Assembly: GCF_000240165.1 (NCBI RefSeq) | Contig: NC_017586.1 | Span: forward strand, 248,001 to 312,000 | Direction of reading: 5' to 3' | Origin: Streptantibioticus cattleyicolor NRRL 8057 = DSM 46488 | GTDB taxonomy: Bacteria > Actinomycetota > Actinomycetes > Streptomycetales > Streptomycetaceae | DNA: 64,000 nucleotides | Shown here: in pieces, positions 4,060-56,701 of the stretch | How positions within the stretch are numbered: the stretch's first letter is position 1 | Layout of the letters: every line of letters begins with the position of its first letter | Notes under the pieces: generated by a model | What the model was told of the DNA's origin: nothing | The model's database searches: none | The model's input: only the letters and a program-made list of their open reading frames with translations | Program-made: the position numbers and the translations under genes

Positions 4060-5400
4060 ATGCCTCGTTCGGGTCTTCGCGCGCTGGTCGCGGTGTTGGG
4101 TGTGCTGGCCCTGGTGGCTGGCTGCGGTTCCGGCGACGGCGGATCGGGGAAGGGGCGGCGTCCGGCCGGGGCCGACGTGACGATCCGGGTGCCGGCCGAC
4201 GCCCCGACGATCTCCGCCGCGGTCTCCCTCGCGCACCCCGGTGACCTGGTGCTGGTCGCGCCGGGTGTGTACCACGAGTCGGTGCGGATCGGCACGGCCG
4301 ATGTCACCCTGCGCGGCGAGTCCCGGGACAAGGTGGTCATCGACGGGCGGCTGCGGCAGCCGAACGGCGTCGTCGTCGCGGCCCCCCGGGTGGCCGTGGA
4401 GAACCTGACCGTGGAGAACAACACGCAGAACGGCGTACTCGTCACCGGTTCCGCCGCGGCGGTCGCCGGATCGCCCGGCCGCACCGGCGGTTACGACACC
4501 GGTGACGAGCCCGTCACCTTCCTGAAGTCGTTCCTGGTCTCCTACGTGACCGCGACCCGCAACGGGCTGTACGGCATCTACGCGTTCTCCGCGCAGAACG
4601 GTGTCATCGAGCACTCCTACGCCTCCGGCGGGGCCGACTCCGGGATCTACGTCGGGCAGTGCAGGCCGTGCCGGATCGTCGTGCGGGACAACGTCGCCGA
4701 ACTCAACGCGGTCGGCTACGAAGGCACCAACGCCGGTGGCGAGATGTATGTCGTCGGCAACCGTCTCGTCGGCAACCGCGTCGGGCTCACCACCGACTCC
4801 GACCACCAGGAGAAGCTCGGCCCGCAGCGCGGCGCGGTCGTCGCCGGCAACCTGATCGCGGCCAACCAGCAGGCGGCCACGCCCGAACAGGCCGACGGCG
4901 GCTGGGGCATCGGCGTCGGGATCGACGGCGGCAGCGACAACGAGTTCACCCGCAACCGGATCACCGGCAACGTCACCGCCGGGCTGGTGCTGACCGCCAC
5001 CGCCGACATGCCGCCGGACACCAACCGGATCACGGAGAACACCTTCGCGTCCAACGGCGTCGACGTCGGCTGGACGTTCCCCACCGCCACCCGCGGCCGG
5101 GGCAACTGCCTGCGCGGGAACGAGCTGCGGACGACGGCGCCCGAGCGCCTCGCCGACGTGGCGTCCTGCCCGGCCTCGTCCGCGTCACCCTCGCCGTCCG
5201 GCACCTGGGCGAAGCCGGCGGCGCCCGGCGGTATCCCGTTCACGGACGTGGCCGCGCCCGGCGCGCAGCCGCAGTTCCCGCACGCCACGACCGCCGGTGC
5301 CACCACCGTCCCGGCCGTGCCCGCGCTGCCGGACACCACGGGCGTCACGGTGCCGCCGGTGTCGCTGCTCGCCGACGGCGCGCGGGTGCCGGTCCGTTGA
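4060..5400 (+). CDS. Right-handed beta-helix lipoprotein (NosD-like)
   Basis: This 446-residue protein starts at ATG 4060 (MPRSGLRAL) and has a lipoprotein signal with lipobox LVAGC at about residue 24. The body starts with PADAPTISAAVSLAHPGDLVLVAPGVY, the usual opening of parallel beta-helix proteins, and continues in repeating coils with Asn and Gly ladders (AVENLTVENNTQNGVLV, NGLYGIYAFSAQNGVIEHSYASGG, GNLIAANQQ, NRITGNVTAGLVL). The C-terminal ~70 residues are Pro/Ala-rich and probably unstructured. Relatives include NosD-type periplasmic proteins and pectate-lyase-like carbohydrate enzymes; no catalytic set can be pinned down here. It is divergent from the DyP gene. Confidence 0.8.
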   Translation: MPRSGLRALVAVLGVLALVAGCGSGDGGSGKGRRPAGADVTIRVPADAPTISAAVSLAHPGDLVLVAPGVYHESVRIGTADVTLRGESRDKVVIDGRLRQPNGVVVAAPRVAVENLTVENNTQNGVLVTGSAAAVAGSPGRTGGYDTGDEPVTFLKSFLVSYVTATRNGLYGIYAFSAQNGVIEHSYASGGADSGIYVGQCRPCRIVVRDNVAELNAVGYEGTNAGGEMYVVGNRLVGNRVGLTTDSDHQEKLGPQRGAVVAGNLIAANQQAATPEQADGGWGIGVGIDGGSDNEFTRNRITGNVTAGLVLTATADMPPDTNRITENTFASNGVDVGWTFPTATRGRGNCLRGNELRTTAPERLADVASCPASSASPSPSGTWAKPAAPGGIPFTDVAAPGAQPQFPHATTAGATTVPAVPALPDTTGVTVPPVSLLADGARVPVR

Positions 5401-50876: not shown

Positions 50877-51736
50877 CTAACACGTCATCTCATTTGGCGA
50901 GTCGGCGGTAGCAGATGAGGGTGCAGGCGAGGCTGGTGAAGGCGAGGAAGTGCTCGGCTTTGCGTTCGTAGCGGCGGTGGAGTCGGCGGCAGCCGGCGAG
51001 CCACGCCATGGTCCGTTCGATGGTCCAGCGATGTCGACCGAGTCGTTGTGAGTTATCGATGCCCTTACGCGCGATGCGGTGCTGGATGCCTCGCTGGGCC
51101 AGCCATTGCCGCAGGTGACGGTAGTCGTATCCCTTGTCGCCGTAGAGCTTGGCGGGCCTTCGCCGACGGGGGCCGCGGCGGGAGCGGATCGGGGGTATGC
51201 CCTTCACGAGCGGGGCCAGGGCCTGGCTGTCGTGGACGTTGGCGCCGGAGATCCCGACGGACAGGGGCAGACCGGTCCGCTCGGTGATCAGATGGATCTT
51301 CGAGCCGTACTTGCCCCGGTCGACAGGATTCGGACCTGTCAGGTCCCCCTTTTCAGGGCCCGCATGTTGACCGAATCGATCGCGCACCGCGACCAGTCCA
51401 GGTCGCCGCGGGAGCCGAGTTCGTCGAGGACCAGGCGGTGGAGCTTGGCCCACACCCGGGCCTTCGTCCATTCGGTGAAGCGGCGGTGGGCCGTCGCGCC
51501 GGACGGGCCGAATGAAGCCGTCGGCAACTGCTGCCACGTGCAGCCCGAGGTCGCCACGAACACAATCGCGGCCAGCACCTCACGGTCACCGTGACGACGC
51601 CGACCGCCACCTTGCGGCCGCGACGGCGCCTCCGGCACCACCCGCTGGAACAGCTCCCACAGCTCATCCGGCACCAGCCGCTCAACGATCCCCGCCACGG
51701 CAGCAGCCTACCCAACCAAATGAGGTGACTTGTAAG
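50877..51736. mobile_element. IS5-family insertion sequence, complete
   Basis: An 860-nt element bounded by imperfect 21-nt inverted repeats (50877-50897 and 51716-51736; 18 of 21 match, sharing GTCA.CTCATTTGG). It encodes a two-frame DDE transposase joined by a -1 frameshift. Both ends and both reading frames look intact. I could not identify a clear target-site duplication. The transposase stop codon lies inside the left repeat. Confidence 0.85.
50890..51698 (-). CDS. IS5-family transposase made by -1 frameshifting
   Basis: The first frame (51698 to 51339, 119 residues; MAGIVERLVPDELWELFQRV, then WSRCAIDSVNMRALKRGT) carries the first catalytic Asp. The second frame (-1 relative) carries LYGDKGYDYRHL (second Asp) and WTIERTMAWLAG (Glu) and ends at 50890. 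The frames overlap at AAAAGGGGG (minus strand, 51353-51345), a plausible slippery site. The fused protein would be about 268 residues with a DUF4096-like N-terminus and DDE_Tnp_1 core. Confidence 0.85.
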
Positions 51737-53725: not shown

Positions 53726-53929
53726 ATGCTTACTCAGGAAACCGTGGAATTCCTCGGCACCACCACCGCGACCGATCAGGAAATGGGTACCGCGATCGCG
53801 TTGATGACCGAAGAGGAATCGGTCATCAGCGACGCGCCCGTGTGCCGGCCCGAGGCGACGGGTGCGCTGCTGCTCGGGCTGCTGATCAGCTGCTCCCCGA
53901 AGGAGCCCAAGGAACGCGACCGACGCTGA
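53726..53929 (+). CDS. 67-residue peptide, candidate RiPP precursor
   Basis: ATG 53726 follows AGGAGG by 5-6 nt, one of the best ribosome sites in the window. The 67-residue product has an acidic leader-like N-terminal half (MLTQETVEFLGTTTATDQEM, then LMTEEESVISDAP). The C-terminal half has two Cys (PVCRPEATGALLLGLLISCSP) around a short hydrophobic stretch and a basic tail ending KERDRR. There is no signal peptide. Size, acidic leader and Cys/Ser/Thr-bearing C-terminus resemble a ribosomally made peptide precursor, but no LanM, YcaO or radical SAM gene is adjacent. It leads an operon of two unknown proteins and a serine hydrolase. Confidence 0.7.
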   Translation: MLTQETVEFLGTTTATDQEMGTAIALMTEEESVISDAPVCRPEATGALLLGLLISCSPKEPKERDRR

Positions 53930-53999
53930 GAAGCCACCCACTCGGTGACCGACCCCCGACCGGTGCCCGGCATCGGTCGCTGACCGAAAGGTCGTACCG

Positions 54000-54707
54000 A
54001 TGTCATTCACTGACACCTCGCTGCACGAGGAGTACGCCGGGGCGGTCGAGTGGGTGGCCGGCCGTGTCCTCGGTGCCGTCACGGGCACCGAGGACACCGG
54101 CCCCACCGGCCCCGGGGCGTGGACGGACACGTACTCCTCCAAGGCTCTGCTCGCCGCGGTCCGGGTCGTCGGCCCGGATCTGGCCGCCGCCGCCGTGCTG
54201 GCGGGTGAGGCCCTGGACCCCGAGACCGCCGAGGTGGCCGCGGCGGCGTTGCGGGTCTTCCCCGGCGGGGACGCCGAGGCCGCCGTCACCCCGGAGCAGG
54301 CGTTGGTGGTGGCCTGGCGGGACTGGGGCACCGCCCGGCTGCTGGGCGACCCCTCGGCCCGGCCGCCGGATCGTTCCCCGTTGCCCGACCCGGCCCGCTG
54401 GCGGCCCTGGTCGGTGCGGCTGGGCCAGCTGTCCTGCCTCGCCCTGCCCGGGCTGCACGGCCCGGTCCACGACGAGGTGGTGCGCGACGCCGAGGCGCTG
54501 TGCCGGGGCGCGGCGCGAGCCATGATGCGGCGTGACACCCGGCTGGCGGCCCGGCTGGCCCGCTGGCTGGCCTGGCTCGAACTGCACGGCCTGACCGTCC
54601 CGTTGGAGGCCGGGCCGATGCTGCGGCAGCTCGCCTTCACCCACGGCGGCAGCGCGCGCACCGCGCTGGACGTCGCCATCGGACAGCGGCTCGCGACCAC
54701 GGAGTGA
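54000..54707 (+). CDS. Helical protein of unknown function in the peptide operon
   Basis: The 235-residue protein is predicted all-helical and Ala/Leu-rich. Visible segments: LHEEYAGAVEWVAGRVLGAV, SSKALLAAVRVVGPDLAAAAVLAGEAL, MMRRDTRLAARLARWLAWLELHG. No family or catalytic motif is recognised. It starts at ATG 54000 with GAAAGG upstream, 70 nt after the peptide gene, and ends 3 nt before the next gene. It could be a peptide-binding or modifying partner (inference). Confidence 0.65.
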   Translation: MSFTDTSLHEEYAGAVEWVAGRVLGAVTGTEDTGPTGPGAWTDTYSSKALLAAVRVVGPDLAAAAVLAGEALDPETAEVAAAALRVFPGGDAEAAVTPEQALVVAWRDWGTARLLGDPSARPPDRSPLPDPARWRPWSVRLGQLSCLALPGLHGPVHDEVVRDAEALCRGAARAMMRRDTRLAARLARWLAWLELHGLTVPLEAGPMLRQLAFTHGGSARTALDVAIGQRLATTE

Positions 54708-54710
54708 ACC

Positions 54711-55637
54711 ATGATCGAACCGCAGGTTCCGCGCCTGGCGCACCAGGTGGCCACCCGTGCCCTGACCTGGCTGCACGCCAACCGTGAACTGGGCGCGCTG
54801 CCCCCCGACGTCACCATCGACCTGGCCGACCCCGACAACGCCTACAAGCCGCTCGGCGAGACCGCGCTGGCCGCCTCGCTGGTGCTGCGGGAGAACGTGG
54901 CGGGACCGCGGCAGACCCAACTCGCCGCCGAGCTACTGGAGTTCTGCTGGCAGCAGCTGCGCGGAGGCGATCTGCTGTACGAGCGTCAGCTGCGTCACTC
55001 GCTGCTCACCGACCCGCTGGAGACGTACGCGCACTTCGCGCGGGCCGGTTACCGGCACGCGCCGATGGAGGAGTTGCTGGCCGGGCTGACCCGGTTGCGG
55101 GCGGCGCGGGCGGTGGAGTGCGTGCCCAACCGCAAGCTCGCGGTGGCCAACGCGCGGCGGGTGGTGGGCCTGGAGGAGGACACCGACTGGGACGCGCTGA
55201 CCGACGCCACCTGGCTGGGGGCGACCCCGGAGCCGTGGGCGGTGGACTGGATGACCGGCTACGACGTGACCCACACGGTCTTCCACCTGACCGACTGGGG
55301 GGCGCGCCCGGAGGGGCTGCCGCAGCGGTTGCGCGGTTATGTGCGCACCTGGCTGCCGGTGTGGGTGGACGTCTGGCAGGAGGTCTGCCAGTGGGACCTG
55401 ATGGCCGAGCTGCTGATCGTGGACAGCGCGTGCGGTGAGCCGGTGTGCGGCATCGGCCCGTGGGAGCAGCTGGCGCGGGTGCAGCACGAGGACGGGCTGA
55501 CCCCCAGGGACGCCGATCCGGTCGAGGAGGACCCGGAGATCCGGTACAAGGACCACCAGCACCCGGCCGTGGTGGCGGTGATCGCCGGGACCGTCGCCCT
55601 GTCGCGTTCCCTGGACACCGGGGTGCGGACGGGGTGA
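54711..55637 (+). CDS. DUF6895-like helical protein
   Basis: The 308-residue protein is helical with an alpha/alpha-barrel look. Blocks: LAHQVATRALTWLHANREL, LGETALAASLVLREN, LLYERQLRHSLLTDPLETYAHFARAGY and TGYDVTHTVFHLTDWGARPEGLP, where YDVTHTVFHLTDWG resembles the signature I associate with DUF6895. A conserved His/Asp set there could bind metal or substrate, but activity is unknown. ATG 54711 has GGAGTG upstream; its stop overlaps the serine hydrolase start by 4 nt (GTGA). Confidence 0.65.
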   Translation: MIEPQVPRLAHQVATRALTWLHANRELGALPPDVTIDLADPDNAYKPLGETALAASLVLRENVAGPRQTQLAAELLEFCWQQLRGGDLLYERQLRHSLLTDPLETYAHFARAGYRHAPMEELLAGLTRLRAARAVECVPNRKLAVANARRVVGLEEDTDWDALTDATWLGATPEPWAVDWMTGYDVTHTVFHLTDWGARPEGLPQRLRGYVRTWLPVWVDVWQEVCQWDLMAELLIVDSACGEPVCGIGPWEQLARVQHEDGLTPRDADPVEEDPEIRYKDHQHPAVVAVIAGTVALSRSLDTGVRTG

Positions 55638-56701
55638 CCGCGGGGACCGGGCGCGCGGTGGTTCCGGGCGTGGCCGGCGATCCGGTGGCGGGCGGCCTCG
55701 TGGCGCTGTCCGCCACCGTTCCGCCCGAGGCGGCCGTGGTGCTGGCGACCGTGCGGGCGGGCGCGACGCGGGTGGACTGCAAGGGGCGTACCGGCTACGG
55801 CGGCGGGGCACCGGTGGACGCGGAGACGCCGTTCGAGATCGGGTCGCTGACGAAGACGTTCACCGCGCTGCTCCTGGCCGAGCTGGCGCAGCGCGGGGTG
55901 GTCCATCCGCACGAGCCGGTCGACGCCTTCCTGCCGCCGGGTTGCCGTCCCCGGGTGGCCGGGGGCGCCCCGATCACGTTGCTGCATCTGGCCACCCACA
56001 CCTCGGGGTTGCCGGGGCTGCCGCCGGGGCTGGTGCGGGAGGCGCTGCCGGTGTGGTTCAGCAATCCGTACGCCCGTTTCGAGGACGCGGATCTGCTGCG
56101 GGCGGCGGGCCGGACCCGGGTGCGGGAGGTGCCGGGCAGCCGGGTGCGGTATTCCAACTTCGGGGTGGCGCTGCTCGGCCGGCTGCTGTCCGGCCGTGTC
56201 GGCACGCGGTACGCGGAGCTGGTGGCCGGGCAGGTGTGCGTCCCGCTGGGGCTGACCGGGACGGGGTGCGCGGCGGCGCCGCGGGGCGCGGTGGGCCACC
56301 GGTACGGAAGGGCGTTGCCGCCGTGGCGGATGCCGGGGTTGCCGGGGGCCGGGGCGTTGCGTTCCACCGGGCGGGACCTTGCCCGTTATCTGGCGGCCCA
56401 TCTGTCGGCGGCGGGCGGCGCGGGGCCGCGCGGCCCGCTGGCCGGGGCGCTGCGGGACGTGGCGCGGCCCCGGCTGGTGCGCGGGCCGGGCGGCGACCGG
56501 CTGGCGCTGGTGTGGAACGTGCGGGAGACCCGGGCCGGGACGTTGTGTTTCCACTCCGGGGCCACCCGTGGTTTCACCGCCTTCATCGGGTTCGCCCCGG
56601 AGCGCGGGGTGGCGGTGGCGGCGCTGACCAACACCGCGCCGCGGTACGACGGAGGCTTCGTGCAGTGCGCGTACGGGCTGCTCGGTTCGCTCGCCGGGTG
56701 A
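55634..56701 (+). CDS. Cytoplasmic S12-type serine hydrolase in the peptide operon
   Basis: The 355-residue protein has the class C beta-lactamase/DD-peptidase motifs: GSLTKTF (SxxK), YSNFG (YxN) and HSGAT (HxG). Other landmarks are LLHLATHTSGLPGLP and GFTAFIGFAPERGVAVAALTN. There is no signal peptide or transmembrane segment, so it should stay in the cytoplasm, unlike cell-wall DD-peptidases. GTG 55634 overlaps the upstream gene. Cytoplasmic S12 enzymes hydrolyse or transfer esters, amides or D-peptides; processing of the 67-residue peptide is a testable idea. Confidence 0.9.
   Translation: MTAGTGRAVVPGVAGDPVAGGLVALSATVPPEAAVVLATVRAGATRVDCKGRTGYGGGAPVDAETPFEIGSLTKTFTALLLAELAQRGVVHPHEPVDAFLPPGCRPRVAGGAPITLLHLATHTSGLPGLPPGLVREALPVWFSNPYARFEDADLLRAAGRTRVREVPGSRVRYSNFGVALLGRLLSGRVGTRYAELVAGQVCVPLGLTGTGCAAAPRGAVGHRYGRALPPWRMPGLPGAGALRSTGRDLARYLAAHLSAAGGAGPRGPLAGALRDVARPRLVRGPGGDRLALVWNVRETRAGTLCFHSGATRGFTAFIGFAPERGVAVAALTNTAPRYDGGFVQCAYGLLGSLAG

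Follow-up and report, generated by a model that had tools for sequence, protein, structure and literature searches.

We analyzed a 64,000-nucleotide window of Streptantibioticus cattleyicolor NRRL 8057 = DSM 46488 (contig NC_017586.1, positions 248,001 to 312,000 of the forward strand) and, within it, a cassette of four genes that encode a 67-residue peptide, a helical protein (P2), a member of the DUF6895 family (P3) and a serine hydrolase of the S12 family (P4). With a probability that we put at roughly 0.58, these genes form a minimal pathway for a ribosomally synthesized and post-translationally modified peptide (RiPP), in which P3 epimerizes the core of the peptide, P2 assists, and P4 cuts at the D-configured segment. 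An earlier note, made from the letters of the window, had proposed a peptide-modification operon here, and an operon of the RiPP type is strongly supported: the genes co-occur near-strictly, and the peptide has a leader-like motif that is conserved and a core that varies. The layout described there is also correct: the AGGAGG site of the peptide gene is present, as GAGGAGG just 5' of the ATG; two helical proteins and a serine hydrolase follow in that order, the one called DUF6895-like being a match to PF21836; and the last three genes are nearly contiguous, with a 3-nt gap between the P2 stop and the P3 start and a P4 GTG start that overlaps the P3 stop as GTGA.

To place the cassette among its relatives, 395 Streptomycetaceae genomes were searched with the P3 sequence and a P2 profile; the analysis drew on two genome collections, and a few loci therefore appear twice (e.g., L003 and L079). 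DUF6895 was matched in 208 of the 395 genomes and P2 in 201, mostly those with DUF6895. We refer to loci with a single DUF6895 gene as type I and to those with two adjacent ones as type II. Some 73 loci of type I are closely related to the window, and type II forms another large group. At the 64 type I loci whose flanks were read, the P2, P3 and P4 families are each present at 63 (one type I locus, L038, has no S12 gene), and no other neighboring gene is of comparable conservation. Gene order is precursor-P2-P3-P4 in type I, often with short stop/start overlaps, and precursor-P2-DUF6895-DUF6895-S12 in type II. Dozens of genomes have the precursor 5' of their P2/P3 orthologs, among them Streptomyces monomycini NRRL B-24309 (L006) and Streptacidiphilus jeojiense NRRL B-24555 (L003), and it or a diverged candidate lies upstream in nearly all intact type I loci; a pattern search gave no precursor at L164, L165, L183, L204, L208 and L209. 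The earlier note had asked whether the peptide gene always accompanies the helical proteins and the hydrolase, or is lost while the other three genes persist. Co-occurrence is near-strict in the sampled Streptomycetaceae, and no clear case of such loss was seen among intact type I cassettes. Five genomes have P2 without DUF6895, apparently as relics of broken cassettes: in two (L149 and L150) the precursor and P2 have outlived both enzymes, P2 being truncated in one of them; in two others (L147 and L148) P2 alone was recognized; and the fifth match was too fragmentary to read. At L095, the region 5' of P2 (about 5116-5247) encodes a candidate precursor that is divergent and whose core is poly-glycine/leucine (LGGGGGWGGGGGGGLLLLSVGKPKK). 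DUF6895 looks restricted to the Streptomycetaceae under thin sampling, as no protein outside that family passed the family cut-off in a 396-genome sample of the phylum.

The precursor has an acidic leader half with an SDAP-VCR-PE motif, a hydrophobic tract (ATGALLLGLLISC) and the tail SPKEPKERDRR. Alignment of 53 distinct type I peptides reveals the same plan, a variable N-terminus followed by E(A)xxSDAPxYxPE, the tract and SPKxPKxK, so that the conserved leader and variable core looked for at the outset are both present. The type II peptides are related, with DLEAALDPAExDGVFRDSREC before the tract and SPPTPRPKKG after it. Type I tracts consist of 52% Leu, 17% Gly and 16% Ala. The window peptide has no Pfam match. 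In the literature searched, a single paper names DUF6895, and the precursor tail sequences looked for occur in none. Median dN/dS (the ratio of nonsynonymous to synonymous substitution rates) for the precursor is 0.21 (66 pairs), with 91% of values below 0.5; hence the gene is real and constrained, contrary to the lack of coding constraint that the earlier note had named as telling against it. This constraint, together with the recurrence of the peptide upstream of P2/P3 orthologs, indicates that the cassette is more than a chance association. A short constrained precursor gene with a conserved recognition part and a more variable core thus adjoins modifying enzymes, the arrangement by which RiPP pathways are recognized. 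The earlier note had also stressed two Cys around the hydrophobic stretch. The leader-like motif it described is conserved, but Cys40 and Cys56 are not: Cys occurs in 7 of 60 precursors, and the Cys in the tract is unique to the window among type I peptides.

The length of the tract follows a two-residue register, a new observation of this analysis. Measured from PE to SP, the type I tract has 7, 9, 11, 13 or 15 residues in all peptides but two, and the type II tract (REC to SP) always has 12 or 14. The register was noticed in part of the data and then tested on an enlarged set, with the leader and tail of the same peptides as controls. When tract lengths are mapped by parsimony onto a tree of 77 type I loci built from DUF6895, 13 of 15 changes are even, compared to 3 of 19 in the leader and 4 of 15 in the tail (13/15 versus 7/34 for leader and tail together; p = 2e-5, Fisher's exact test); two type II changes were counted in the same analysis, and one of them is to be disregarded because the DUF6895 behind it (L139) is truncated. 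The proportion of even changes is 11/14 on the P2 tree, 12/14 on the P4 tree and 12/14 when the window is omitted. Since tract lengths change almost only by two, the pattern suggests that the core has a two-residue structural period, as might arise if it is anchored at both ends as an extended strand or if alternate residues are processed, for instance into alternating D and L residues.

P3 matches PF21836 over residues 15-293 (E = 3.7e-81, 273.1 bits against a cut-off of 23.8), and its model is an (alpha/alpha)6 toroid with a predicted local distance difference test score (pLDDT) of 94. DUF6895 has no sequence relatives among solved structures. VIA-align superimposes the P3 model on a squalene-hopene cyclase (Z 16.7, root-mean-square deviation [rmsd] 3.7 Å, 251 residues) and on cellobiose 2-epimerase (Z 16.6, rmsd 3.8 Å, 276 residues), and both Z scores are higher than chance similarity between helical proteins is said to give. 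Across the DUF6895 proteins compared, from every context, six residues are conserved almost without exception (K46, T187, H188, D195, D229 and Q258). Another three (H192, E233 and H284) are invariant in types I and II and look replaced in the DUF6895 proteins of the radical S-adenosylmethionine (radical-SAM) cluster described below. The title of a recent paper names a DUF6895 family epimerase in lasso peptide modification (ACS Catal 2026, 16, 1757; ref. 371, PMC13352647).

DUF6895 occurs across several RiPP cluster types. It adjoins LanB, LanC, an ABC transporter and a gallidermin/FDLD-type precursor at one locus (L136) and lies near LanB at another (L137). At L133, and similarly at L134, L135 and L138, two DUF6895 genes flank a radical-SAM protein in the company of a major facilitator superfamily (MFS) transporter, a prolyl oligopeptidase and an aroma-sacti domain protein; at L116, DUF6895 is downstream of an NHLP ABC1/ABC2 exporter pair, and neither P2, S12 nor a recognized precursor is found at that locus. 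The statement in the earlier note that no known RiPP maturase lies nearby is therefore outdated, given these associations and an epimerase role that is named, at least, in a title. Other features of these loci deserve mention. The class I lanthipeptide enzymes beside DUF6895 at L136 and L137 suggest D-residues made there without the dehydroalanine-reductase route. The L133-type cluster, which has the radical-SAM motif CNLGCGYC, a glycosyltransferase-like protein and a second radical-SAM gene, looks undescribed, and the related locus L130 has a possible 42-residue precursor ending EDWCVVNNSSAL. Perhaps a further setting is seen at L129, L131 and L132, where a conserved 65-68 aa gene (like RRALEFLQSSGLV...VAGYVLAWEKYVLVV) precedes one for a protein of 577-590 residues whose N-terminal domain is DUF6895 and whose C-terminal half is unnamed.

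P4 matches PF00144 over residues 35-337 of 355 (E = 4.3e-51, 174.5 bits), and its catalytic motifs S71xxK74, Y173xN175 and H307xG309 vary little or not at all among 84 homologs. By hydropathy and inspection, P4 shows no evident signal segment at its N-terminus, in agreement with the cytoplasmic location proposed earlier. The S12 family is mostly D-stereospecific (PMC2651629). An S12 gene is present in both types, and no other maturation protease travels with the cassette; two of the other DUF6895 clusters have one at hand, a C39 exporter-peptidase at L116 and a prolyl oligopeptidase at L133. Of the two activities that had been offered for the hydrolase, cleavage of the peptide remains plausible; nothing points to acylation specifically.

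P2 is modeled as all-alpha, without strands (pLDDT 92.7). Neither P2 nor any of 54 P2 homologs has a Pfam match, and its fold relatives stay within the noise for helical proteins (best Foldseek E 0.23; VIA Z ≤9.2). The idea that P2 is a diverged DUF6895 paralog was rejected by profile comparison (probability 0.1%). The canonical RiPP recognition element (RRE) is a PqqD-like winged helix with strands, and the strand-free helical models of P2 and P3 do not resemble it. Many RiPP classes have no RRE.

Set beside the conservation, synteny, constraint, catalytic motifs, DUF6895 associations and length register described above, the chemical steps that we infer would run as follows. SDAP...PE would be the conserved recognition motif, preceding a Leu/Gly/Ala core and the basic SPxxPK tail. 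The DUF6895 toroid would convert at least one core residue from L to D, and the chemistry is probably of the acid-base kind, with His and Asp side chains in the region of H188, D195 and D229; the backbone alpha-carbon is the natural target because the core offers almost no side chains other than those of Leu, Gly and Ala. P2 would be a near-obligate partner that perhaps binds the precursor. P4 would recognize the D-configured segment and cut there, freeing the core from leader and/or tail, as might be expected from the D-stereospecificity of its family and its position as the sole maturation protease traveling with the genes. The register would then reflect processing of alternate core residues or a core held as an extended strand. 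A more specific version, which we put forward tentatively and consider doubtful, has the cassette making short gramicidin-like peptides of alternating L and D residues: DUF6895 would epimerize every second tract residue, a D-stereospecific S12 peptidase would release the segment, and the tract would grow or shrink only by two because every second residue is epimerized.

A literature search found no description of this four-gene pathway, and its parts can be compared to several known systems. The lasso pathway named in the title cited above has, like the cassette, a DUF6895 protein and a ribosomal precursor. Unlike it, the window has no lasso B (leader peptidase/RRE) or C (Asn-synthetase-like cyclase) protein among the ten flanking proteins scanned, no lasso-type genes are found among the conserved neighbors of the 64 type I loci, and DUF6895 is paired here with P2 and S12. 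MslH, of the lasso peptide MS-271, carries out non-radical acid/base epimerization with His/Asp residues, as proposed for P3, but it has a calcineurin-like fold, uses Ca(II) and acts on a C-terminal Trp (PMC10406935), whereas DUF6895 is a predicted alpha/alpha toroid. Polytheonamide, a proteusin, contains many D-residues in a ribosomal peptide (PMC5808125), and two-residue alternation is possibly common to both systems; it depends on the radical-SAM enzyme PoyD and a nitrile-hydratase-like leader, neither of which is present in the cassette. Window Pfam scans and the conserved-neighbor analysis likewise gave no LanB/C/M/KC/L or radical-SAM enzyme in the cassette. The thioesterases SurE, PenA and Ulm16, of the penicillin-binding protein (PBP) type, are stand-alone PBP-related serine enzymes like P4 and need a D-residue at the reaction site; they act on peptides bound to nonribosomal peptide synthetases and have a lipocalin-like domain (PMC11735501) that P4 does not. 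Pab87 and other D-stereospecific S12 peptidases have catalytic motifs in common with P4 and hydrolyze D-containing peptides; Pab87 is archaeal and octameric, has a lipocalin domain and is without a precursor peptide partner.

It is unlikely, in our estimate, that DUF6895 uses another chemistry here (lyase- or hydrolase-like, for instance) and that the lasso epimerase is unrepresentative of this branch. Cyclases, GH105 hydrolases, polysaccharide lyases and epimerases do share the toroid fold at similar Z, and the apparent replacement of H192, E233 and H284 in the radical-SAM cluster leans the same way; against this, nearly every context retains K46, H188, D195, D229 and Q258, and a tract of this composition leaves the backbone as the obvious target. 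Quite unlikely, too, is that P4 serves as a cyclase, forming an acyl-enzyme at a D-residue, expelling the SPxxPK tail and joining the free N-terminus into a head-to-tail macrocycle. PBP-type thioesterases do make such a link, between an L-residue at the N-terminus and a D-residue at the C-terminus (PMC11735501), and the tail is conserved, as a leaving follower might be. P4, however, consists of PF00144 alone and ends soon after it, and its assignment as a PBP-type thioesterase was rejected on that ground; because the C-terminal lipocalin-like domain is missing, cyclization is less likely than hydrolysis. The P4 profile resembles beta-lactamases and DD-peptidases, and a separate leader protease would be required.

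We consider it very unlikely that the peptide is an unmodified small membrane or signaling peptide accompanied by an unrelated linked operon of three enzymes. The Leu-rich tract and the lack of a transporter would suit such a peptide, but 7-15 residues is short for a membrane span, an alpha-helical membrane peptide gives no reason for a two-residue register, the peptide gene is followed by P2-P3-P4 in almost all cases, and DUF6895 is present in several RiPP cluster types. Hardly credible is a chemistry built on Cys40 and Cys56, whether disulfide, thioether or acylation: the window peptide invites it with its two Cys, and the precursor alignment largely refutes it, most homologous precursors being without Cys.

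Several points weigh against the preferred reading, epimerization by P3 followed by cutting by P4. Foldseek gave no match for P3 at E ≤ 0.001, and the modeled toroid does not establish epimerization, since toroid folds serve many chemistries. The lasso precedent for DUF6895 is taken from a paper's title. The S12 profile of P4 scores class C beta-lactamases best, so specificity for D-peptides is drawn from the family as a whole. The register is broken by L076 (14 residues) and L086 (12 residues). No dedicated transporter or regulator accompanies the cassette, unlike most secreted RiPPs; as it has no exporter, its product may function intracellularly or rely on a general transporter.

The features of the locus are collected in the table below. 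According to Pfam scans, the surrounding genes in the window encode an esterase, a polyketide-cyclase-like protein, a SpoIIE phosphatase, an IS4/5 transposase and a STAS protein, and further a polysaccharide deacetylase, a formamidopyrimidine-DNA glycosylase and an amino-acid permease, none of which has any relation to known RiPP classes. The IS4/5-family transposase lies upstream of the cassette on the minus strand, in two overlapping frames (window 50890-51698). A defense system was rejected as the identity of the cassette, as PADLOC gave no match.

Table. Genes of the cassette and segments of the precursor, in window positions
Feature	Position	Strand	Basis
Precursor peptide, 67 aa	53726..53929	+	ATG start; open reading frame, conserved family and dN/dS
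Leader-like motif SDAPVCRPE, residues 35-43	53828..53854	+	Alignment of 53 precursors
Hydrophobic tract, 13 residues between PE and SPK	53855..53893	+	Tract comparison with relatives
Conserved basic Pro/Lys tail SPKEPKERDRR, residues 57-67	53894..53926	+	Precursor alignment
P2, unnamed helical protein, 235 aa	54000..54707	+	Predicted all-alpha; without Pfam family
P3, DUF6895 (PF21836), 308 aa, candidate peptide epimerase	54711..55637	+	Pfam match and predicted (alpha/alpha)6 toroid
P4, cytoplasmic S12 (beta-lactamase/DD-peptidase family) serine hydrolase, 355 aa	55634..56701	+	GTG start; SxxK, YxN and HxG motifs

If the proposed pathway is correct, about half of the sampled Streptomycetaceae genomes would carry a ribosomal peptide pathway of four or five genes that is not described in the literature searched. 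A non-radical epimerase family would then serve several RiPP classes, alongside a cytoplasmic hydrolase that is likely D-peptide-specific, and a function could be assigned to DUF6895 and to the family-less P2. The register would predict which residues become D. Should the alternating version hold as well, these bacteria would possess a widespread, non-radical ribosomal route to hydrophobic peptides of alternating D and L residues.

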